A stretch of 64,000 bases of DNA. Origin: Debaryomyces hansenii CBS767. Its lineage: Eukaryota; Ascomycota; Pichiomycetes; Serinales; Debaryomycetaceae. The translations under genes were made by a program, and so were the position numbers. Positions within the stretch are counted from its first letter, which is position 1, and every line of letters starts with the position of its first letter. Of this stretch, positions 450 through 55,389 are shown one piece after another. The stretch is from positions 186,001 through 250,000 of the forward strand of contig NC_006049.2 of the NCBI RefSeq assembly GCF_000006445.2, written 5' to 3'. The notes beneath the pieces were generated by a model, which was given only the letters and a program-made list of their open reading frames with translations, did not search any database and was not told where the DNA came from.

Positions 450-2705
450 CTAGACTAATAACGCGAGAATTGAGAACAATAACACGCTCCAGGAACACCT
501 GTTCGAATTGGATAACGCTTCATAGGACGAAAATGCGTATGGGGGAATGTATTGGGTTGATGATGGGTATTCCGCGGAATATGAAGGCGGGAGAGCTGCG
601 GTGCCGGTAATAATAGCATGCGATGAGATGGACGTATCAGCAATATCGGACTGAGGTTGAGAATTAGTATTGATGGAGGAGTCAACGGTAGACGATGTGG
701 GCAAGATGTCCGAATGTTCTTTTTGAAGTGATTCTGAAGATAATTCAGGAACGTAGGTAGGAAAAGTAGTGGTACAATCTTCGTCGCAAGAAATACTCTC
801 GGTTATGGTTTCGGCGTCGGTAATTGGCGGGTATTCGCACAGGAGACATTCGCCAGTTTCCAGTGGTTCAGCATAAGTTGTAGTGCCGTTTGCTATATCG
901 ATGGTTGACAGAACAAATTCTGACGTCTGAGAATCGACGTACTCACTAGGAACACTTGATTCTTCATACAGTGTGGTCTCTGTTGTTCCAATAGCTGGTG
1001 GAATGGATGTGGACAATATCGAGGAACTTACACAGTCCTGACAAGAATGTGTTTCAGTAGTATTATTGACAGACATCTCGGTTGTTTCCACAACGGGAGG
1101 AACAGACGTAGACGATATCAACGAAATTGAACAGTCGTAACAAGAAATCGTTTCTGTGGTTCTATTGATAGACGTAGTCGTCTCTGTTTGAGTTTGAATG
1201 GTCGATGATAACGTACATTCAGTACAAAGAGTGGTTTCCTCCACACCTGACAGCGGTTCGGTATACGATTCCGTTGTATGACTAACTGGAGGTGGGATTG
1301 ATGTGGACAAGATGGATGAATGTGAGCAGCTTTCACAGGGTGTTTCACTGCTAGTTTCTGATTCGGTAGTTGAAGACTCAAGTTTACTGCTTGTCTCTGA
1401 AGATTTGCTAATTGAAGATACAACTTCACTACTTGTCTTTGTTGATTCACTGGTTGATTCACTTGTAGAGTGTTCCCTGGTTGTTGATTCACTTGAAGAG
1501 GGTTCCCTGTTTGTTGATTCACTGGTTGATTCACTTGAAGAGGGTTCCCTAGTTGCTGATTCACTGGTTTTATGAGCACATTCCGAACAGATGGTTTCAG
1601 TTACTGTATTTGTATTCAATGTAGTTTCCGTCTCTGTTATGGGCGTCGTAGAACACTCATTGCATGGACTACTCGTTTCATGGGTACTTGTCATTTCTAA
1701 ACTTGAAGATAACGCAATCGAACTCGATACTTCAGTATCTCCATTTGAAGAAGATACGCCGTCTACCACCCTTATTATTTTAGTGATTCCATCCACCTTA
1801 GAAGATCCATCGCTACATTTAATATTTTCAGCATATAAATGTTTAACATAAATGGAATTATCTGGATACTTTTCAAATCCTTCAAGGAATACTCTATACC
1901 CCAGTGGAATATTATTAAATGTAGCAGTAAGTTTTTTGTTATCACTTGAACATCTAATTGATCCCACATCGATTGATTTATAGCTCTTAGGTAAGTAGAA
2001 ATCATTCAAGTCATTAGTAATCTTCAACTTGAATTGTGAGCAATCAACCGAGTTATTGGTTGTGAAAACCATAGAACCAGAAGTTATACCTTCATTGCAG
2101 GTGCCACTTAATACAAATACTTGTTCTAAATCTTGTGGGGTTGATCTTGAGTAGTATAATAATTCATCAGTCTTTTTGTCTGTGAAAAAAGGACCTGATT
2201 GAAAATTAACGTCAGATTGAATATTATTGAAGCTAACCTGATTGTCGCCTGAAGTAAACCTTTTTGCAGAAGAAATGTCTGAATCAGAAGAGGAACCGCC
2301 AGCATTAAATACAAAATCAAATGTTATTTCTCCTACTGCGGTCGTATCCTTTTTATCATCCACAGAACTTGTCATCGAACACTTGAGGTATGAAGCATCC
2401 CTATTAAATGAACCATCGTTTACTTGACAGCGAGCATAGATAGTACCGTCTGCTTTTAATAATATTTCGTTGCCACTAAACTTGGTTCTGAAAACATAAG
2501 GCATCAGGAAGAAAAATATGTCATTATGTAGAACATCAGCAGTAACAATTTTCCATCCGACAGTTGCAGTCCTTATATCTTGGGGTCTGCTCGATGTTGA
2601 AGGATTAGTTATTTTCAACGACTGCCATATATTAGTAACTGTTATAGCAGCAGTTGTTTCGAGTAAAACGAGGGATAATAATACTGTAATAAGGCTTGTC
2701 TTCAT
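450..2705 (-). CDS. ALS-family GPI-anchored cell-wall adhesin
   Basis: A 751-residue surface protein. Residues 1-20 form a signal peptide. Residues about 21-320 match the ligand-binding N-terminal domain of the Candida ALS agglutinins, seen in the segments DGTIYARCQV, FVFNAGG, FTSGDNQVSFNN, ITSGSMVF and LNDFYLP. The rest is a Ser/Thr-rich stalk carrying about eight cysteine pairs, mostly CxxC (CNEC, CSEC, CESC, CTEC, CYDC, CQDC, CLLC, plus CDEDC), several followed by a degenerate ILSTSIPP-type segment, and a Ser/Glu repeat tract at roughly residues 375-440. The C-terminus (SNSNRCSWSVLLFSILALLV) is a hydrophobic GPI-addition signal. The expected role is adhesion to cells or surfaces after covalent attachment to the wall. 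Two cysteines conserved in ALS N-domains are replaced (PCVF is PYVF, SKCF is AKRF). The canonical 36-residue ALS repeats are absent. The family assignment is firm; the ligand is unknown. Confidence 0.85.
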   Translation of the reverse strand: MKTSLITVLLSLVLLETTAAITVTNIWQSLKITNPSTSSRPQDIRTATVGWKIVTADVLHNDIFFFLMPYVFRTKFSGNEILLKADGTIYARCQVNDGSFNRDASYLKCSMTSSVDDKKDTTAVGEITFDFVFNAGGSSSDSDISSAKRFTSGDNQVSFNNIQSDVNFQSGPFFTDKKTDELLYYSRSTPQDLEQVFVLSGTCNEGITSGSMVFTTNNSVDCSQFKLKITNDLNDFYLPKSYKSIDVGSIRCSSDNKKLTATFNNIPLGYRVFLEGFEKYPDNSIYVKHLYAENIKCSDGSSKVDGITKIIRVVDGVSSSNGDTEVSSSIALSSSLEMTSTHETSSPCNECSTTPITETETTLNTNTVTETICSECAHKTSESATREPSSSESTSESTNREPSSSESTTREHSTSESTSESTKTSSEVVSSISKSSETSSKLESSTTESETSSETPCESCSHSSILSTSIPPPVSHTTESYTEPLSGVEETTLCTECTLSSTIQTQTETTTSINRTTETISCYDCSISLISSTSVPPVVETTEMSVNNTTETHSCQDCVSSSILSTSIPPAIGTTETTLYEESSVPSEYVDSQTSEFVLSTIDIANGTTTYAEPLETGECLLCEYPPITDAETITESISCDEDCTTTFPTYVPELSSESLQKEHSDILPTSSTVDSSINTNSQPQSDIADTSISSHAIITGTAALPPSYSAEYPSSTQYIPPYAFSSYEALSNSNRCSWSVLLFSILALLV

Positions 2706-3376
2706 ATTTATGAGCGAAGGAATTTAGTTGGTGCAAAATATTGAGATTTGATACAACCCCCAAGACGATACATTACCTATATATACATATTCTTAAAGTA
2801 GTTCGAGGCTTATGAAACACATGTTTCAATACCTTAACTACAAATGTGTAGTCTTTTTTAAACTGGAACAGTTTTTATCGATTTAAGTTTATATTGAATT
2901 ACTCGAATAGGTTATGAAAGGTTGCAACAAAAATTCATATTTTTCGCAATTTTTATTCTTTTTTAAATATTTCCTTAGTTGAGGATTAACTACAATTTAT
3001 TAAGATGACGCACTATCATAGCACTATTAAACATTCTATTTAAATATTCAAGCTAATTACAAAATAGTTTGAAGAAGTAGATATCATCTAATTCCAAAAA
3101 ATGCCGGAAGAAAAAAAAAGTGTCAATAATGACTCGACACCTCAACATCCCGTTTCAAAAGATGCAAGTGCAATGGTCTATGCACCAAATTTTACGATTC
3201 AATTACCTATATGGTAATTACTTAATACGGATTTGAATAAGCTAATTGAAAATATTACTGTAATTGAATGCCAATGGATTTATTATTACCTATTAACGAA
3301 CTTATAAGAAAAGTCGAAAGCATATTTACAAGAAGGTAAAATTCACTTAAAAAAAAAAAAATGCTATTTACATGCT
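2706..3376. other. Adhesin promoter and convergent spacer
   Basis: AT-rich DNA upstream of the adhesin (minus strand) and downstream of MRX10 (minus strand). Apart from the doubtful micro-ORF at 3101-3217 I see no gene. TATA-like ATATATACATA lies about 65 bases upstream of the adhesin start. Confidence 0.4.
3101..3217 (+). CDS. Possible micro-ORF or first exon (doubtful)
   Basis: A 38-codon frame starts MPEEKKSVNN and ends QLPIW. A donor-like GTAATT overlaps the last codons (ATATG|GTAATT), and TATTAAC followed by AG dinucleotides lies downstream near 3290-3315. It could therefore be the first exon of a small spliced gene, but splicing at the first AG after the branch gives an immediate stop and no joined product looked familiar. 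I do not recognise the peptide. It may be chance. Confidence 0.22.
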   Translation: MPEEKKSVNNDSTPQHPVSKDASAMVYAPNFTIQLPIW

Positions 3377-4546
3377 TCACTCATTAGGTTTATCATTATT
3401 TTTATTATTAGCTTTATCTGAGTATCTTTCGTAAAAGTGGAAGGTTTCAAACCCAACTTCGACCATAATAAGAATTATGATGATCCACTCCAACCTGGTG
3501 CTTTTCTTCTCATTCAACACAGCTAACAACGCACTTTGCTCTTCTGTAGCATAATCTAATTTTCTATTCAAAATAGAAATTCTTGGGGAGATGTCTAGAT
3601 TACGTGAAATCAACTCGTAAATTCTCTCTAAGGTAGGTTCAGTCCAGTACAAATCTGGGGTTTCAATTAACTCGGAATATAAGTTCAACTTACCTCTCAA
3701 TAAGAACAATCTCCCCGTTAGTTTTAAGACATCCGATTCTGTCGTTTTTATTTGTTTCCCCTCCGATAAATATTCTGAGTTAACTCTAGTTAGCTGGATG
3801 TGGTTTTCCAACGCATTTTCCAATACAGATAACCGCGTAGACCGAGATAACCCTATTGCAAAGGCCGCTTTATCCAACAAGATTTTGTCTTTATTAGTGC
3901 CCTGTATCACCATGATATCCCCTTGCATGTACGAATTGCCATTATTAGGCGAGTTATCAGGAAGATAATCAAGCTCCACCCAATCAATCTCTTCACTCTC
4001 GGGTTCACATTTATCACATATAGCCGGAAGAAGCGTCGGCATGATTTGTTTCACAATAACTGACTCACTCAACCCCCAACCAACTATTGTTCCGTTTGTC
4101 AATATCATTAAGTCTTTTCCATTGTACTTGACGTTAATTACCTCTTCTGGCATCAACACCGAGTACTCGTTTCTTCTATTCCCGTCGGAATCGAGCCTAT
4201 TAAGTTCATTCAAAACCACTTCGAAATCAATTGTTTCTCCAACCGTCACCGATGTCACCGGAGATAGATATTTCTCCAACACCTCAATGCTTTTTGGCTC
4301 GTTGTTTTTATTCAACAACGACAATATGTACTGCGCCGTCTCCCGTTGCAGATTTGGGCTCGACCGCCTTAAATGCTTGATCGAAGGTTTCTGCTTCTTG
4401 GTGCTCATATTGACCTTCTTGTCTTTCCCATTGGAAAGGTACCGTTTGCAAAGAGTGTCGCTCAATAATGGGACCCGCGTCATCCTCTGCACCGTTCCTG
4501 GGTTCCATCCACCGAGGCACCGCCTTTGAATCAATCTACTTATCAT
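3377..4546 (-). CDS. MRX10: Mitochondrial RMND1/DUF155 protein (Mrx10-like)
   Basis: A 389-residue protein of the DUF155/RMND1 family, like S. cerevisiae Mrx10 (YDR282C), an inner-membrane protein linked to mitochondrial gene expression. The first ATG is at 4546; the open frame continues upstream only through a TTG. The first 40 or so residues are rich in Arg and lack acidic residues (MISRLIQRRCLGGWNP), a typical mitochondrial presequence. The family core spans roughly residues 120-365, with the characteristic NGTIVGWGLSE segment and LSRSTRLSVLEN helix. One hydrophobic segment near the C-terminus (WIIIILIMVEVGF) fits the known single membrane anchor. The assignment rests on family pattern recognition; the exact role in this yeast is inferred. 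Confidence 0.85.
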   Translation of the reverse strand: MISRLIQRRCLGGWNPGTVQRMTRVPLLSDTLCKRYLSNGKDKKVNMSTKKQKPSIKHLRRSSPNLQRETAQYILSLLNKNNEPKSIEVLEKYLSPVTSVTVGETIDFEVVLNELNRLDSDGNRRNEYSVLMPEEVINVKYNGKDLMILTNGTIVGWGLSESVIVKQIMPTLLPAICDKCEPESEEIDWVELDYLPDNSPNNGNSYMQGDIMVIQGTNKDKILLDKAAFAIGLSRSTRLSVLENALENHIQLTRVNSEYLSEGKQIKTTESDVLKLTGRLFLLRGKLNLYSELIETPDLYWTEPTLERIYELISRNLDISPRISILNRKLDYATEEQSALLAVLNEKKSTRLEWIIIILIMVEVGFETFHFYERYSDKANNKNNDKPNE

Positions 4547-5578
4547 TTGCTTCTTCCAAACCAATACTCTTGACTATTATTCGTTCTGGCCGTTATCAGC
4601 TCATCTAACTATTCCTAATGCTGAATGCCTAAATATGTCCCATTCTCACATATACCCAGATAAAAAGCCCCGATTTAAGAATATTTCAGCACGTACCCCG
4701 GTACGAACTCCACGTAAGCCTACCGCGTGATTAGTCCCTATTCATAGCAGAAAAAAGTCCGGTCTAGACACCGTTACCTACAAATTGGGCCTGAAATCTA
4801 ATCGGGCTAAATTACTGCGTACTCTTTTTTCATTTGAATTACGGCCAAAATAATGCTATGCTGTTCTTTTCATTTTGAGTCGGCTTGCGTATTTCATTTT
4901 TAAGTGATACTGGTACCATTCTTCATCCTATATTGTTCCAATGAGGCTCTCGGTTGGGTGACATAATGGCTTTCGAAATATCTATTATTCTTTTAATAGA
5001 ATGGATGGCCATCGGTTTGTTTATATTAGTACTAAATAGGAAGTGTAATAACGAAGAAATCCTTGTAAGACAGGCGTAGGCTCAGTACACCCTTTTACAC
5101 CTCTTCTAAAGGGGAGGTCGAAGGTGGAATGAACCTCTCTTAACACGAACATTCATTACAGTTTTTTGTCCATTAGGGCTTTTCATTAAGCTGAATACAC
5201 CCACTAATTAACAAATTCGTACTCAAATAAACCTCATTGTAATAGCGAGCGGGTCAGAGCCGTTGTGGTCCGCACCGATATCTAGAAGCTGGACATTGTG
5301 GTCTGGGACAGGGGAAGAAAACTGGTATGTTTGACCTATCCCGAGTAGACAGGGGTTATGCTTTGTTTACCAAAAAAAATTAACCAAAATAATTCTATAT
5401 AAAAGTCCACAAAACGCCATTATTGATGAATAGAAGCAAGTGGAATTGGAACATTTGACCATATTAAAGAAGAAAAACTTTCTTGATATATAAATAGGAA
5501 ATAAATCAGTCGTAAAGAAATATATTGGTTTGAAAATACATATATTACGGAATATTATATTACAGAAATTAGATAAAT
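4547..5578. other. Divergent promoter region MRX10/GFA1
   Basis: About 1 kb without a gene. A TATA box (TATATAAAAG, 5396-5405) lies about 180 bases upstream of the GFA1 start, and a forkhead-like TGTTTAC is at 5364-5370. No tRNA, snoRNA guide or further spliced frame was found. Confidence 0.5.
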
Positions 5579-32077: not shown

Positions 32078-33529
32078 ATGTCATCAACTATATTTTATAA
32101 GTTTTTATCCCAGAAAACTCAATCGACCATTCATTTCGATGGGACGGGTATAAGTGTGTTTGATTTAAAGCATGAAATCATATTACAGAATCAACTTGGT
32201 CAAGGTACAGATTTTAATTTAAGATTGTATCACCTGGAACAGCCAGACTTGGAATACGAAAACGATCAAGATGTTATATCTAGGTCATCCTTTGTTTTAG
32301 CAAAAAGATCGCCGAGTTTATCGAAGAATGGGAAATTCAATAATGCTTCAAGATATGTCAGTGGAAAACCACGTATTAATAAGAAGGTGATGAATACAAC
32401 GGCAACTATGGCAGCCAACGGAGCGGCAAATAAGAATGAGAGTAGACCAGTGGACGAAAATATATCCGAAGAAGACCGTATTAAATTGATGTTCGAAAAT
32501 CAATCCAACGCATGGGCGCAAACGCAAGATGAGCTTTCTACACATAAGGTGGTATACAATAAGCCATCCGCTACTGGTACTAATCCAGAAGACATACCAC
32601 CCCCAGGATATATGTGTTATAGATGTGGTGGCAAAGACCATTGGATTAGAAATTGTCCTACTAATACCGATCCTAATTTTGAAGGTAAAAAGATTAAGAG
32701 GACTACCGGTATCCCAAAGTCATATTTGAAGACTATCTCCAAAGAGGCGGCTACAGCGGCAGAAAATAATAATGATGGGTCCGATAATCAAATAACAACG
32801 AATGAAAATGGTGACCTCGTGGATCAACAGGGCAATACATATATGATTACGGAAACTGGTGAATACGTTATTGCAATGGCCGATAATAAGACTTGGCTTA
32901 ATTACCAACAAAAGCAGCAAAATGCAGCAATGAAGGCAAAGCAGGAATTTGAATCAAAGATCTTGGAATGTATCGAGAAGGACCAAAGGACAGAGTTCTT
33001 GGATCCTTTGGCGAGCTCGATCAAAAAGTTATTGGCACCACCGATAGTTATGACGTCATGCTGTCAGTCTAAAGAAATTTTAAAGAAAATGACAAACTTT
33101 AATTACCATCAACCTACTTTGGAACAAGTATTGATTGAAAATGACTTCCACTGTCCAAACTGTGATTCTGAAGATGTCTTCATAGATACACTTATACGAA
33201 ATGAAGAATTGGAATCGAGTCTCCAGGATTATATCAAAGAAAAGGGGGAACAATTAGGTATCGAAGATCCAATTACTGCCGCAAATAATGCCTTGAAGAG
33301 GTCTAGCGAGGGCGATGACGACCAACCAGATGCAAAGAGACAAAACATTGGATTACCTCTGAGACCAAATATGCTTCCAATGGTTTCGCCATTTGGAATG
33401 CCTCCAGGTATGCCAATGCCACCTATGCCGATGGCTATGAATCCAAACATGCCAATGCCACCAATGTTTATGCCACCAGTTCCACCACCATTTGCAATGA
33501 ATAACCAACAACCCCAACAAAAGAAGTAA
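32078..33529 (+). CDS. MPE1: Cleavage/polyadenylation factor subunit Mpe1
   Basis: A 483-residue subunit of the mRNA 3'-end processing complex (RBBP6 family). The N-terminal DWNN ubiquitin-like domain (residues 1-78, STIFYKFLSQKTQSTIHFDG, then FDLKHEI) is followed by a CCHC zinc knuckle (CYRCGGKDHWIRNC, near residue 185) and a RING-like domain (CCQSKEI ... CPNCDSEDVFIDTL, near 328-375). The C-terminus is Met/Pro-rich. Length is typical (441 in S. cerevisiae). It is divergently arranged with NUP120 across 182 bases. Confidence 0.95.
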   Translation: MSSTIFYKFLSQKTQSTIHFDGTGISVFDLKHEIILQNQLGQGTDFNLRLYHLEQPDLEYENDQDVISRSSFVLAKRSPSLSKNGKFNNASRYVSGKPRINKKVMNTTATMAANGAANKNESRPVDENISEEDRIKLMFENQSNAWAQTQDELSTHKVVYNKPSATGTNPEDIPPPGYMCYRCGGKDHWIRNCPTNTDPNFEGKKIKRTTGIPKSYLKTISKEAATAAENNNDGSDNQITTNENGDLVDQQGNTYMITETGEYVIAMADNKTWLNYQQKQQNAAMKAKQEFESKILECIEKDQRTEFLDPLASSIKKLLAPPIVMTSCCQSKEILKKMTNFNYHQPTLEQVLIENDFHCPNCDSEDVFIDTLIRNEELESSLQDYIKEKGEQLGIEDPITAANNALKRSSEGDDDQPDAKRQNIGLPLRPNMLPMVSPFGMPPGMPMPPMPMAMNPNMPMPPMFMPPVPPPFAMNNQQPQQKK

Positions 33530-33699
33530 AAGTCTACTGTCATATAATTGTATAATAACTCTACATTCTATGTATATCAATACACATATTTTATAATTTC
33601 TATATTAGTTCACCACCTTCAAAATGTATCATTATCGCTAGTAGTTGGGCTTCATACGATAACCTTAAGTCCATCTGGAACCCTATAATCCTTTGGATT

Positions 33700-33706
33700 T
33701 TACCCG
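33700..33706 (+). promoter_or_regulatory. Reb1-like site upstream of the snoRNA host
   Basis: TTACCCG matches the yeast Reb1 core. It lies about 125 bases before the first host donor. A Tbf1-like AACCCTA (33679-33685) is next to it. Both factors are known to mark snoRNA promoters in yeasts; their use here is inferred. Confidence 0.35.
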
Positions 33707-33880
33707 GAGAAACGAAGTTACACAAAATGCAAATTTCAAACGAAAATTTTTATACCATTTTGTCTTTAAAACGTCCAATGCTGTTCTTTCTTTTTCTTGC
33801 TTTTCTTTGAATAATATCAATTTGTTTAGTGTATGTTTATTAAAGAACCAACGTTCTCATAATTTACTCATTGGGTTATT

Positions 33881-33969
33881 ACAACGTAAAAGATGATCCA
33901 AACATAAATTTCAAACTAGAGTATGTGACTATTAAGAATGATCACAAAAGTATTGCTGATATTAGTTGT
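33881..33969 (+). ncRNA. snR78: Box C/D snoRNA snR78 (25S Um2421)
   Basis: C-like box AAGATGA at 33890-33896, box D CTGA at 33956-33959, terminal stem ACAAC/GTTGT (33881-33885 with 33965-33969). The guide TCAAACTAGAGT (33911-33922) is fully complementary to 25S rRNA around U2421. It is followed by a degenerate D' box GTGA (33925-33928), so the fifth base upstream pairs with U2421, the known snR78 target. The GTATGT at 33921 is part of the snoRNA and not a donor. Confidence 0.85.
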
Positions 33970-34112
33970 TTGCCCGAGTAATAGTGAATTTTATAATTCA
34001 AAGTGTTAATACTAACAAGTATAGACATCCTATATTTTTTTTATTCCATTTTTTTTCTAATTCTAATGAAATAAGCAGAATAAGTATGTTACAAATTTGA
34101 AACTTATTTGAG

Positions 34113-34203
34113 ATTGATTTATTATGATGATTTAACAAAAACAAAGCTGGAATTACTGGCTGAAACTCTATGATTGATAAGTTTTTGCACTTCCTGATAC
34201 AAT
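34113..34203 (+). ncRNA. snR77: Box C/D snoRNA snR77 (18S Um578)
   Basis: Canonical C box ATGATGA (34124-34130), D' box CTGA (34160-34163) and D box CTGA (34194-34197). The guide GCTGGAATTAC (34146-34156) pairs perfectly with the universal 18S segment GUAAUUCCAGC; the fifth base upstream of D' is the A opposite U578. A short ATTG/CAAT pairing closes the ends. Confidence 0.9.
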
Positions 34204-34260
34204 ACTTCAATTTCAAATTATTTTTTTGATGTTATCGAACATTTTACTAACAATAATCTT

Positions 34261-34268
34261 AGGTATGT
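34261..34268 (+). other. Abutting 3' and 5' splice sites (AG|GTATGT)
   Basis: The acceptor AG of intron 2 (34261-34262, after TACTAAC 34245-34251) is followed at once by the donor GTATGT of intron 3 (34263-34268). The exon between has length zero, the arrangement of a recursive splice site. Confidence 0.7.
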
Positions 34269-34304
34269 TTTGATCGTTCATGATACGATATCATTAACCT
34301 AAAG

Positions 34305-34400
34305 CTAACATGAGGAATTATTGCACTGGGCACTGAATATTTTGTGAGTGACAACGCATTTATGGTGGGCCTCAGAAACCCACTGTTACTGATCCTATTG
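34305..34400 (+). ncRNA. snR76: Box C/D snoRNA snR76 (25S Cm2197)
   Basis: The guide GCACTGGGCA (34323-34332) is complementary to 25S UGCCCAGUGC, and D' CTGA (34333-34336) puts C2197 at the fifth position. The D box is CTGA at 34389-34392. The C box is less clear: ATGAGGA (34310-34316) is the best candidate, ATGATAC (34280-34286) the alternative, so the 5' end is approximate. Confidence 0.8.
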
Positions 34401-34562
34401 TTTTATTGAAAAATGTGATTAATTGTATTCTGCTGTATCACTATCATTGGACATATATACTAACAAATTTCAATAGACAATATATCCCTTCATTTGGCAA
34501 AACTTGATTATAGTTTTGGGCTTGTAATTGTATGTATCTACCGTTTCGTTGAAGAATAATAA

Positions 34563-34660
34563 TAGATAAAAGATGATCTCCTTAGATGACGAGTCAGAAT
34601 TTCGGGATTCCCGTTGATGACAACCTTTTTTTAATACCATTCATGCAAATCTGATATCTA
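34563..34660 (+). ncRNA. snR75: Box C/D snoRNA snR75 (25S Gm2288)
   Basis: Terminal stem TAGATA/TATCTA (34563-34568 with 34655-34660), C-like box AAGATGA (34570-34576), C' TTGATGA (34614-34620), D CTGA (34651-34654). The guide TTAGATGACGAG (34582-34593) is fully complementary to 25S CUCGUCAUCUAA; the degenerate D' box CAGA (34595-34598) sets the fifth base, C, opposite G2288. Confidence 0.88.
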
Positions 34661-34773
34661 AATTATTTTAACTTGAAATGAAAATGGAAACAATGACTAA
34701 CATGATAGAATCAATGAACATTTACAAATTAATCCAGGTGGGTAATTTGGTTAATGCTTTTGATAAAGTACAG

Positions 34774-34864
34774 CAAATCCAATAAAAGATGAGCTTGAAA
34801 AAAAAGACAAGCATATGTCTGAATCTTTAATGAAGAGAAACTTTTTCGTGTCTGATATTATTTG
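34774..34864 (+). ncRNA. snR74: Box C/D snoRNA snR74 (18S Am28)
   Basis: C-like box AAGATGA (34786-34792), D' CTGA (34819-34822), D CTGA (34852-34855), with end pairing CAAA..AATA to TATT..TTTG. The 13-base guide AGACAAGCATATG (34805-34817) is perfectly complementary to the 5' region of 18S rRNA, and the fifth base upstream of D' pairs with A28. Confidence 0.92.
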
Positions 34865-34983
34865 TTGTATGCTTTATCAATTGTATATAAATTACTCATC
34901 CTCGTATTAACGGATTTTATAATCAGTCGATTATTTGTTCTTTAAAGTGTTTGAGTGAGAAAGATTTAAACGATAGCATATTG

Positions 34984-35103
34984 AAAGTTAATGATGACTT
35001 CACCACATTTATCACGACGGTCTACTGCGTATTGGAACTTGTAATTCCTTTACTTTGATGATAATTTTAGGCCTTGACCGGCCGTGGTTCCTGATATAAC
35101 TTT
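34984..35103 (+). ncRNA. snR73: Box C/D snoRNA snR73 (25S Cm2959)
   Basis: Perfect 7-bp terminal stem AAAGTTA/TAACTTT (34984-34990 with 35097-35103), canonical C box ATGATGA (34991-34997), D CTGA (35091-35094). The 13-base guide TCACGACGGTCTA (35012-35024) pairs perfectly with 25S rRNA and is followed by a degenerate D' CTGC; the fifth base is the G opposite C2959. Good splice signals on either side are missing. Confidence 0.9.
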
Positions 35104-35197
35104 TAATGCTTTTGTTTAAGTCTTTCTTCGCTCAAATTCGTTCGAGGTCCCCAACATAAAAGTATGTATTATATATCACGGCGAATACATTGTATTT

Positions 35198-35278
35198 AAA
35201 ATGATGATTTTTATAATTTCTCGAGAACATCAATGAAGAACTCCAAAAAAAATTCGATTTGCATGTCAGTCTGATTTT
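35198..35278 (+). ncRNA. snR18: Box C/D snoRNA, U18-like (25S Am649)
   Basis: Canonical C box ATGATGA (35201-35207) and D box CTGA (35271-35274) inside the 35162-35340 intron. The guide TCGATTTGCATGTCAG (35254-35269) pairs with 25S CUGACGUGCAAAUCGA through 16 positions with one G-U wobble. The fifth base upstream of D pairs with A649, the site guided by U18. In S. cerevisiae U18 lies in the EFB1 intron instead. Confidence 0.8.
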
Positions 35279-35503
35279 TCAACTTTGTATTCTATCATAA
35301 CCAGCTAGACTGTTAATATGGTATACTAACAATAATCTAGTGTTTATAGTAATAAAATATTTATCTTCCATAAAAGTTGTAGAACTTTTGATAGTGCGCG
35401 GCATCGACATCATCACCTTTATTTATATAATTTGACACTCTTGAAAGACATTTGAAGGAATACTTAAGGATACTTAGATAAAGTAAATATAGTATAAGTG
35501 GGA

Positions 35504-38305
35504 ATGCACTTGAATTTTCACAAACCTTCTGGAGGTTCAAAGAGTCTTGGGAAGTCTCCTACAACGTCTAGTGGAAGTACCCCATCTGACGATCCCCCAT
35601 CTTATGATTTCACAGTATCTTCTACGACATCAAGCGGTTCAATAACTAACGCATCCTCGCCAATACGGAGACCTAATTCAAGTTTGATTTCAAGAGGAAG
35701 CCCATCAAAGAATCAAAAACAACAAAAAAATGTTCCCTATAGACCATCCGATGATTTGAAAAACTATAGCAAGATCCTTAGCAATTCCAATGAAACAAAC
35801 TTATTATCTCCTGCTAGCTCCAACACCCAAACTGAGTATTTTGATGTCCTACCATCATTTCAAATGTTTCAATCGATCTTGAAAAGAGACGATTCCCAAT
35901 TCAGTGAAAATTTATCAGTGAACCCTCCTATATATGGGGATGTTACTAACTCATCACCGACTCCCCCAAGCGGATTATCGCCAATATCATCCAATAGAGA
36001 TAATAATCTAGATTCTATGATGGAGAATGTTAGTGAAAGGATTAATGAGTATGCGTTAGATAACAATGATGAAGAAGAGAACTATTTCTTTGGTGGGGAT
36101 GAAAATGATACTAATCAAGCCAATGAACATTTAATAAACGAGGAGAATACACCAGTCGCAACTAATGATACATACGGTGAAACGGTATTAGATAACATAG
36201 ACAAATTGCCAAAATTAAACAATTCTCCAATAGATATCCAAGTTTATGTAACCAAAAGAGTACCACAACCTAATCTACCAAATGATTTAGAAACTAGATT
36301 GAAAATGTATTCTAGTGGTGATTTGGTAAATGGATATATTATAATTACAAATACGTCAGATGAGCCGGTTGATTTTGGTTTATTTGTAGTAACATTGGAT
36401 GGTACTATAAAGACAACTCATTCAAACCCCAATGCTAATCCTGCGGATATACACAAATATGATAAAGTTTTAATAAAAAAGTTCTTGAAGATGTATGATC
36501 TCAATGCTTCTTATGGATATACTCAGATTCCCAATAGTGCAGGGATTGAATATGAAGCTTTCACTAAGGACCTTCACGATGGCTGTGAACTTGGATTACC
36601 AAACGAAAGAGTTTTGAGGCCTCATACTAAGTATAAAAAATTTTTTACGTTTAAATTTCCTCACAAGCTTTTGGATAACAATTGCATTCACGATGTGTTG
36701 CCTCATATATTACCACCTCCATCGATGGGATTAGATAAAACCTGTTTTTATAATAGGGGTGGTACTATTGTACTTAATAAGGCGTTAGGATACGGATTTC
36801 TAAATGTGAGAGGCACTCCTTTGTTAACCAAAGACTACAGTTTTGATAATATTAGTGTAAGTTATACAATTGAAGCCAAGTTCATAGATAAGTTGAATGC
36901 TAAGAATCAAAAAGATCCCTTATCGCAGCATGAGATTAACGACCCAAATTCACAGGCTGACTACGTTATCTCAAAGCACAGTCAATATTTCTTGAGGTTT
37001 GTACCAGATTTCAAGGAAAAATTTAAATATTACAATGAAGGTTTTCAATATGGTACTGAGACATTTGGAGCAATAGGAATTGATGGAAAATTATTCGAAA
37101 GTTACCTTCATTTGAGTACCTGGAGACAAATCTACGAATTGAATTATAATATAGAAAAGGAAATAGACTCGAAGTTGGCGCGAGAGGAATTCAAAGACGA
37201 TGATGTGAAAAAGAAGAACTTATCAATCGATCGTACAGTTACCAACTCAAACCTATATTACTTGAATATTAAAGAGCATTATTTACAGAAAGATTGTTCC
37301 CAAGCTGAACTTGATGAAGAGCAACAATTTCGAGATGAAAAGATGATTGGATCGAAAGTTCCAGTTACGATATATGGGAAAAAGAAAAAAAAGATTTTGT
37401 CATCGTTAGTTAGAATCGGAGAACTGAGCTTGTATGTTAGAGTACCTCATAAGGTTGTTCCTTACACTTCACCAAAATTATTAATGAAATATAACAATGA
37501 CAATTCTGATGATTTTATATCTGGAGCAGCATTACGTTCGGTAGCTTCAGCATCGTCTATATCTGACAAAATCAAGTTGGCTCCAACCAAATCAAATGAT
37601 CTAGCTCCAAGAATATCTGCAGCGTCTACAACTAGTATTAGTGATCTCTACAATAGAAGTGCATCGGACGTGCTTAACTCGGTTGACATAGTATTGTCGT
37701 TTGTACCTTTTGATAATGCTACGAAACCTCCGCAGATAGACAGTATAGAGACTAACCTTGTGTTTTGGACATACAATGCTGAATTTCCTTTACCTGTGAT
37801 ACTTGAGTACGACTTCTTTTATACAAATCCCGATGAAAGTAAAAGTAAACTACTAGATGATGTTGAAATTACCAGGAATAATTTGCAATCTTTAAAAGAT
37901 CAAGTTTATAATTATATTCAATTCTTACAGGCTAACAAAATTTACATTTCGAAGACATCTTATTTATATTTAAAGTCAATGAAAACTTTAGGAATCAAGA
38001 AGGACACAGTCAAAGAGTACTTCAAGACTCTTACACATTCAACCAATCCAGAGTTATTGAATAATGAACAAGATTGGAAAGCTAAGCAATTGCCAAATAA
38101 GAAAATTAAATGGGAAAGAAAGCTTACGGTACCATTAACTACTATTAATAAGAATAATATAAATTTAATACCCAGCTTTCAGAGTTGTTTGGTCGGAAGA
38201 ATATATTGCTTACAAGTTCTTGTCAAATATAAAGGAAGTGGTGGTGATCAAGATGAGTTCGCAGATAATATAGTGAAGGTCGATGTTCCAATTCTTGTTG
38301 GCTGA
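35504..38305 (+). CDS. BUL1: Bul1/Bul2-type arrestin adaptor of the Rsp5 ubiquitin ligase
   Basis: A 933-residue adaptor that recruits the HECT ligase Rsp5 to permeases and other cargo. The frame opens at a GTG; the ATG at 35504 (MHLNFHKPSGG) is the likely start. Two PPxY motifs are visible, PPSY (31-34) and PPIY (141-144), the Rsp5 WW-binding signal. The segment EYFDVLPSFQMFQSIL resembles the Bul N-terminal signature, and an arrestin-like core follows (GYIIITNTSDEPVDFGLFVVTLDG, about 275-300, then the TKYKKFFTFKFPHKLL segment). Length matches Bul1 (976 in S. cerevisiae). Which of the Bul paralogues it corresponds to cannot be told. Confidence 0.88.
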   Translation: MHLNFHKPSGGSKSLGKSPTTSSGSTPSDDPPSYDFTVSSTTSSGSITNASSPIRRPNSSLISRGSPSKNQKQQKNVPYRPSDDLKNYSKILSNSNETNLLSPASSNTQTEYFDVLPSFQMFQSILKRDDSQFSENLSVNPPIYGDVTNSSPTPPSGLSPISSNRDNNLDSMMENVSERINEYALDNNDEEENYFFGGDENDTNQANEHLINEENTPVATNDTYGETVLDNIDKLPKLNNSPIDIQVYVTKRVPQPNLPNDLETRLKMYSSGDLVNGYIIITNTSDEPVDFGLFVVTLDGTIKTTHSNPNANPADIHKYDKVLIKKFLKMYDLNASYGYTQIPNSAGIEYEAFTKDLHDGCELGLPNERVLRPHTKYKKFFTFKFPHKLLDNNCIHDVLPHILPPPSMGLDKTCFYNRGGTIVLNKALGYGFLNVRGTPLLTKDYSFDNISVSYTIEAKFIDKLNAKNQKDPLSQHEINDPNSQADYVISKHSQYFLRFVPDFKEKFKYYNEGFQYGTETFGAIGIDGKLFESYLHLSTWRQIYELNYNIEKEIDSKLAREEFKDDDVKKKNLSIDRTVTNSNLYYLNIKEHYLQKDCSQAELDEEQQFRDEKMIGSKVPVTIYGKKKKKILSSLVRIGELSLYVRVPHKVVPYTSPKLLMKYNNDNSDDFISGAALRSVASASSISDKIKLAPTKSNDLAPRISAASTTSISDLYNRSASDVLNSVDIVLSFVPFDNATKPPQIDSIETNLVFWTYNAEFPLPVILEYDFFYTNPDESKSKLLDDVEITRNNLQSLKDQVYNYIQFLQANKIYISKTSYLYLKSMKTLGIKKDTVKEYFKTLTHSTNPELLNNEQDWKAKQLPNKKIKWERKLTVPLTTINKNNINLIPSFQSCLVGRIYCLQVLVKYKGSGGDQDEFADNIVKVDVPILVG

Positions 38306-55033: not shown

Positions 55034-55224
55034 GACATGCATTATACCGAACTTTATATTATTTAGTTGTATAGAATCAATAATAGTATGATTTTTTAGT
55101 TCCTGTAAACCATAGAGTTTGCCACTGTATAACAATCATGTAATGCCTTGAAAATAGATATTTTAAAGGTCAAGTATATGTTCGTCTCATAGTGAACCGA
55201 TTTAGTTTAGTATATCAGAAATTT

Positions 55225-55298
55225 GGTCCCTTGGCCCAGTTGGTTAAGGCGTGGTGCTAATAACGCCAAGATCAGCAGTTCGATCCTGCTAGGGACCA
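55225..55298 (+). tRNA. tRNA-Ile (AAT)
   Basis: A 74-base cloverleaf without intron: acceptor GGTCCCT/AGGGACC with discriminator A, anticodon loop CTAATAA, T loop TTCGATC. The anticodon AAT reads isoleucine (as IAU). Only three Ts follow, so the usual pol III terminator is missing before the next tRNA. Confidence 0.97.
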
Positions 55299-55316
55299 TT
55301 TCTCTCTATTTACACA

Positions 55317-55389
55317 GGGCGTGTGGCGTAGTTGGTAGCGCGCTCCCTTAGCATGGGAGAGGTCTCCGGTTCGACTCCGGACTCGTCCA
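55317..55389 (+). tRNA. tRNA-Ala (AGC)
   Basis: A 73-base cloverleaf almost identical to S. cerevisiae tRNA-Ala: anticodon AGC in loop TTAGCAT, and the G3-U70 pair that identifies alanine tRNAs (acceptor GGGCGTG with CTCGTCC). It starts 18 bases after the tRNA-Ile and is followed by a run of nine or more Ts, a strong pol III terminator. Confidence 0.97.

Follow-up and report, generated by a model that had tools for sequence, protein, structure and literature searches.

A box C/D snoRNA cluster I of the CTG-clade form in Debaryomyces hansenii

Cluster I in related fungi

The S. cerevisiae snR72-snR78 polycistron carries the same seven snoRNAs, in the same order, as the locus described here, and its target sites are the same. 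The Candida-type cluster I has been studied as well, reportedly by Mitrovich et al. 2010 among others. The first-pass annotation of this DNA had described the S. cerevisiae cluster as intronless with the same order. This agrees with the excerpted text of Donovan et al. 2016 (PMC5033589), according to which the polycistron is without introns and the stem-loops in its linkers are cut by Rnt1, followed by exonucleases. In excerpts of Luo et al. 2013 (PMC3596301), the clusters are unspliced in S. cerevisiae and its relatives, internal exons are absent in the Candida clade, and D. hansenii itself is one of the species in which clusters I to III were analysed, with RT-PCR on its clusters II and III.

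Intronic clusters had also been noted for Candida-type yeasts, and passages of Donovan et al. do describe the cluster in four Candida-clade species, where the transcripts lack protein-coding potential, five snoRNAs of cluster I are intronic and the snR75 intron contains GACTAAC (PMC5033589). For C. parapsilosis, C. orthopsilosis, Lodderomyces elongisporus and C. albicans, parts of both papers (PMC5033589, PMC3596301) give the order, the non-coding host and the five intronic members that we predict here; shared, too, are the branch sequence GACTAAC of the snR75 intron and, except in C. albicans, a GTATGT inside snR78 (excerpts of PMC5033589). C. parapsilosis has lost snR72 from the cluster. In filamentous fungi cluster I is all intronic, as far as the excerpted text goes (PMC5033589), whereas snR74 and snR73 are exonic in our locus. 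The Neurospora crassa cluster I consists of intronic snoRNAs in a non-coding, UHG-like host that is alternatively spliced, and one snoRNA, CD5, carries the functions of both snR72 and snR78 (excerpts of PMC2780460).

We are close to certain that the locus represents the CTG-clade form of cluster I, the box C/D polycistron snR78-77-76-75-74-73-72, and that it would give a single Pol II transcript and no protein product. It was first called a hidden gene; its kind, however, is already described (Donovan et al. 2016, PMC5033589; Luo et al. 2013, PMC3596301), and publications on relatives already report the gene order, the non-coding host, the loss of exons and the snR78-internal donor. The proposed ancestral-type intronic form with a non-coding host matches both the sequence and this literature (PMC5033589, PMC3596301).

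Seven box C/D units and their guides

The window, a 64,000-nucleotide stretch of the D. hansenii CBS767 genome, carries seven box C/D units between 33790 and 35400, all on the + strand and in the same order as in the snR78-72 polycistron of S. cerevisiae. When the whole window was searched with cmscan, five matches exceeded the Rfam gathering score: snR77 (90.9 bits), snR75 (73.2), snR76 (73.1), SNORD27 (59.4) and snR73 (55.3). They span 34120-35096 on the + strand and cover five of the seven units. At a loose threshold, in 32500-37000, snR78 was found upstream with 31.8 bits (cut-off 48) and snoZ122, presumably a plant family, downstream with 34.9 bits (cut-off 38). The SNORD27 match was taken as snR74 because the N. 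crassa table, in its excerpted part, pairs snR74 with U27 (PMC2780460). Rfam supports the order 78-77-76-75-74-73 plus one further unit, with snR78 and the seventh unit below cut-off. The seven units of the first-pass annotation are thus present at the place and on the strand it gave, and the covariance search that it had proposed recovers five of them above the gathering score and two below.

The units are snR78 (33886-33961), snR77 (34120-34199), snR76 (34305-34396), snR75 (34568-34656), snR74 (34781-34859), snR73 (34987-35096) and, most likely, snR72 (35193-35281). Every unit ends with a CTGA D box. The C-box pattern RTGA(T/G)GA is found in four and AGATGA in the remaining three. Counting by hand along the coordinates, we found the correct nucleotide opposite the D+5 or D'+5 base in all seven units, given D' boxes one letter off CTGA in snR78 (GTGA), snR75 (CAGA) and snR73 (CTGC).

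Two targets are in 18S. In the complete eukaryotic SSU of one rDNA record (L005), the base at D'+5 lies opposite position 578, a U, for snR77 and opposite position 28, an A, for snR74. The record itself is a eukaryotic rDNA unit (SSU, 5.8S and the start of LSU, at 2050-4963) whose contig is listed as belonging to the bacterium Planomonospora parontospora, probably through contamination.

In the stretch inspected, the 25S part of this record reads N beyond about the first 400 bases, and rDNA was not found in the window's own assembly when two short motifs were searched. Therefore, we used provisional 25S fragments that were chosen to surround the expected sites, so that the comparison was not a blind search. 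Against these, snR78 paired over 12 bases (guide 33911-33922, D' GTGA), snR76 over 10, snR75 over 12 and snR73 over 13, with the expected +5 bases U, C, G and C, respectively. A second stretch of snR75, 34637-34646, also pairs with the same provisional fragment. The respective site numbers U2421, C2197, G2288 and C2959, which we assume to be right, are those of the first-pass annotation. Pairing length alone proves little, because chance-type pairings occur: snR78 pairs with SSU 19-33 over 15 bases (11 Watson-Crick and 4 G-U). Against the provisional fragments, these four sites and the A876 discussed below are the predicted 25S targets.

The seventh unit had been read as a guide for A649, the one of seven proposed target sites that did not stand. 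Its guide forms 16 base pairs (15 Watson-Crick and one G-U) with a provisional 25S stretch that places one A at D+5. When this A is set to 876, the provisional fragment has the expected letters at 649, 650, 663, 805, 807, 817, 867, 898 and 908, nine numbers from a list of methylated yeast sites that we take to be correct. The unit is most likely snR72, because the guide places A876 at D+5 and A876 is the snR72 site; in the excerpted N. crassa table, snR72 is the homologue for the matching site Am856 (PMC2780460). The series snR78-snR73 was borne out, and with the probable snR72 it is complete. All seven snoRNAs of cluster I are thus present in order on one strand, with snR72 identified through its guide on the provisional 25S stretch. 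An exact search of the genome (12.18 Mb, 8 contigs) for the core of this guide returned this copy only, and the lack of a second match, in rRNA, fits the absence of rDNA from the assembly.

The guide for A649, U18, has one match in the genome, on contig C3, confirmed as Rfam SNORD18 (L003 1501-1599). The match is intronic; the translation of the surrounding gene, read by eye, starts MSFSDFSKVETIKSLNEF, and we take this gene to be EFB1. In C. albicans, snR18 is likewise in the EFB1 intron, according to an excerpt of PMC2926782. With the SNORD18 match on contig C3 and the pairing at A876 of the provisional stretch, we rejected the seventh unit as the U18/A649 guide.

It is very improbable that the seventh unit is some new or relocated guide instead of snR72, whether for A649 or as a U18 copy that moved into the cluster. 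Rfam has no snR72 match at this place, its best family there being the sub-threshold snoZ122, and most fungal species have lost the snR72 intron from cluster I, as stated in an excerpt of Luo et al. (PMC3596301). However, the 16-base pairing with the provisional stretch puts A876 at D+5, the letters at the nine other sites between A649 and G908 are those expected, and the U18 guide is a different sequence in the EFB1 intron on contig C3. Moreover, in cluster I as Luo et al. define it in the excerpted text, snR72 follows snR73 (PMC3596301). We therefore retain snR72 as the most likely identity of the unit.

Intron signals and the non-coding host

We scanned for introns as a GTATGT donor followed, within spacing limits, by TACTAAC or GACTAAC and the next YAG. 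Five modules were found on the + strand in the cluster, all with GTATGT donors and TAG acceptors. Intron 1 (33831-34024, branch TACTAAC at 34010-34016) carries snR78 and is followed by exon 2 of the predicted non-coding host (34025-34083, 59 bases). Intron 2 (34084-34262, TACTAAC at 34245-34251) carries snR77 and abuts intron 3 (34263-34476, TACTAAC at 34458-34464), which carries snR76. After an internal exon of 53 bases (34477-34529) comes intron 4 (34530-34708) with snR75 and the branch GACTAAC at 34695-34701. A long non-coding exon of 453 bases (34709-35161) contains snR74 and snR73, and intron 5 (35162-35340, TACTAAC at 35324-35330) carries the probable snR72. The distance from the branch A to the acceptor end is 8-13 bases in all five introns. 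As first proposed, most units lie inside introns with full signals; snR74 and snR73 are without one, and the intron scans gave no donor-branch pair in the 453-base exon that holds them.

Dinucleotide shuffles of 33790-35400 (n=2000) had a mean of 0.003 intron modules and a maximum of 1, compared with the five observed in 1.6 kb. Elsewhere in the window, the same pattern occurred 0 times on the rest of the + strand and once on the whole minus strand. A looser scan without spacing limits gave four further candidates per strand in the 64 kb and listed, as a sixth row in the cluster, a donor inside snR78.

At the boundary of introns 2 and 3 (34262/34263), the sequence reads CTTAG|GTATGT, which leaves an exon of length zero between them. 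The acceptor directly adjoins the next donor, so these two introns must leave sequentially or together. As read from the sequence, removal in either order leaves the sites of the other intact.

The predicted spliced host is 696 bases long, with an assumed start at 33790 and an assumed end at 35430. It holds no long ORF, the longest from an ATG being 31 codons, and the longest ORF listed in the interval is 72 aa (ORFs of at least 40 aa, ends closed). The host is without protein-coding potential, as in the described clusters, and the view that no protein gene explains this region was upheld. Five members are predicted to lie in spliceosomal introns, which is the Candida form.

The genes of the neighbourhood encode a Nup120/160-type nucleoporin, a DWNN/zinc-knuckle protein (Mpe1), a Bul1-like protein and the small chain of carbamoyl-phosphate synthase. 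Among the best 120 of 428 matches, the named proteins closest to Mpe1 come from Priceomyces carsonii (75% identity), [Candida] anglica and [Candida] railenensis, and the next ones from Scheffersomyces, Meyerozyma and other CTG-clade yeasts; a further match is 99% identical. Farther along, at 55224-55389, the genes for tRNA-Ile (AAT) and tRNA-Ala (AGC) lie on the same strand, 17 bases apart.

Predicted processing and the donor inside snR78

Judged from the arrangement of the signals, the cluster would be transcribed and spliced, and snR78, snR77, snR76, snR75 and snR72 would be released from debranched introns. snR74 and snR73 would be cut from the long exon by an endonuclease and exonucleases. 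The mature snoRNPs would then guide 2'-O-methylation of U578 and A28 in 18S and of U2421, C2197, G2288, C2959 and A876 in 25S. It is likewise very improbable that the introns are decayed remnants and that an unspliced transcript yields all seven snoRNAs, as it does in S. cerevisiae: two of the seven are already without introns and AGNN-loop hairpins flank one of these, but in each of the five introns the consensus donor, branch and acceptor are intact and closely spaced (8-13 bases from branch A to acceptor end), and RNA-seq detected the spliced cluster I RNA in C. parapsilosis, according to an excerpt of PMC5033589.

The two hairpins flank snR74 on the + strand. The one before snR74 (34725-34749) has an AGGU loop at 34736-34739, and the one between snR74 and snR73 (34919-34934) has an AGUC loop at 34925-34928. 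Yeast Rnt1 recognises loops of this AGNN kind, and both hairpins are possible RNase III (Rnt1-type) signals. In a test that was conceived after seeing the fold and excluded the bodies of the snoRNAs and the 5' portions of introns 2 to 5, AGNN-loop hairpins were in the best fold of two of 13 segments, both of them the linkers flanking snR74, and in none of the other 11. Shuffles of the two linkers formed such a hairpin in 12/500 and 10/500 cases, and same-size segments elsewhere in the window in 11/864, 17/888, 17/489 and 15/503 (1.3 to 3.5 percent). Neither linker folds better than its own shuffles (z -0.83 and -0.64). When the whole 453-base exon was folded, the pairs of the first hairpin had a probability of 0.0 and those of the second about 0.6 to 0.7. 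We regard the Rnt1-like hairpins around snR74 as a weak lead and not as a finding. Processing of Candida snoRNAs needs further analysis, as Donovan et al. state in an excerpt (PMC5033589).

The GTATGT inside snR78 (33921-33926, + strand) is a candidate alternative donor. It overlaps the guide end and the D' box (GTGA) and is the sole GTATGT within any of the seven snoRNA bodies. Splicing from it would cost snR78 41 of its 76 bases. In the excerpted text of Donovan et al. 2016, a splice event within snR78 is described, with GTATGT at this place in C. parapsilosis, C. orthopsilosis and L. elongisporus (PMC5033589). It is absent from C. albicans, whose snR78 is without the internal donor, unlike here (same excerpt). 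One could read this donor as a switch and, together with the Rnt1-like hairpins around snR74, the locus as an intronic/endonuclease hybrid, halfway to the S. cerevisiae state; we consider this rather improbable. If it were true, splicing from the internal donor would destroy snR78, and one transcript would give either snR78 or a host RNA without it.

For the CTG clade, our analysis confirms the conserved intronic cluster I in one of its yeasts. It adds little that is new, and the exact parts given here can be used for annotation.
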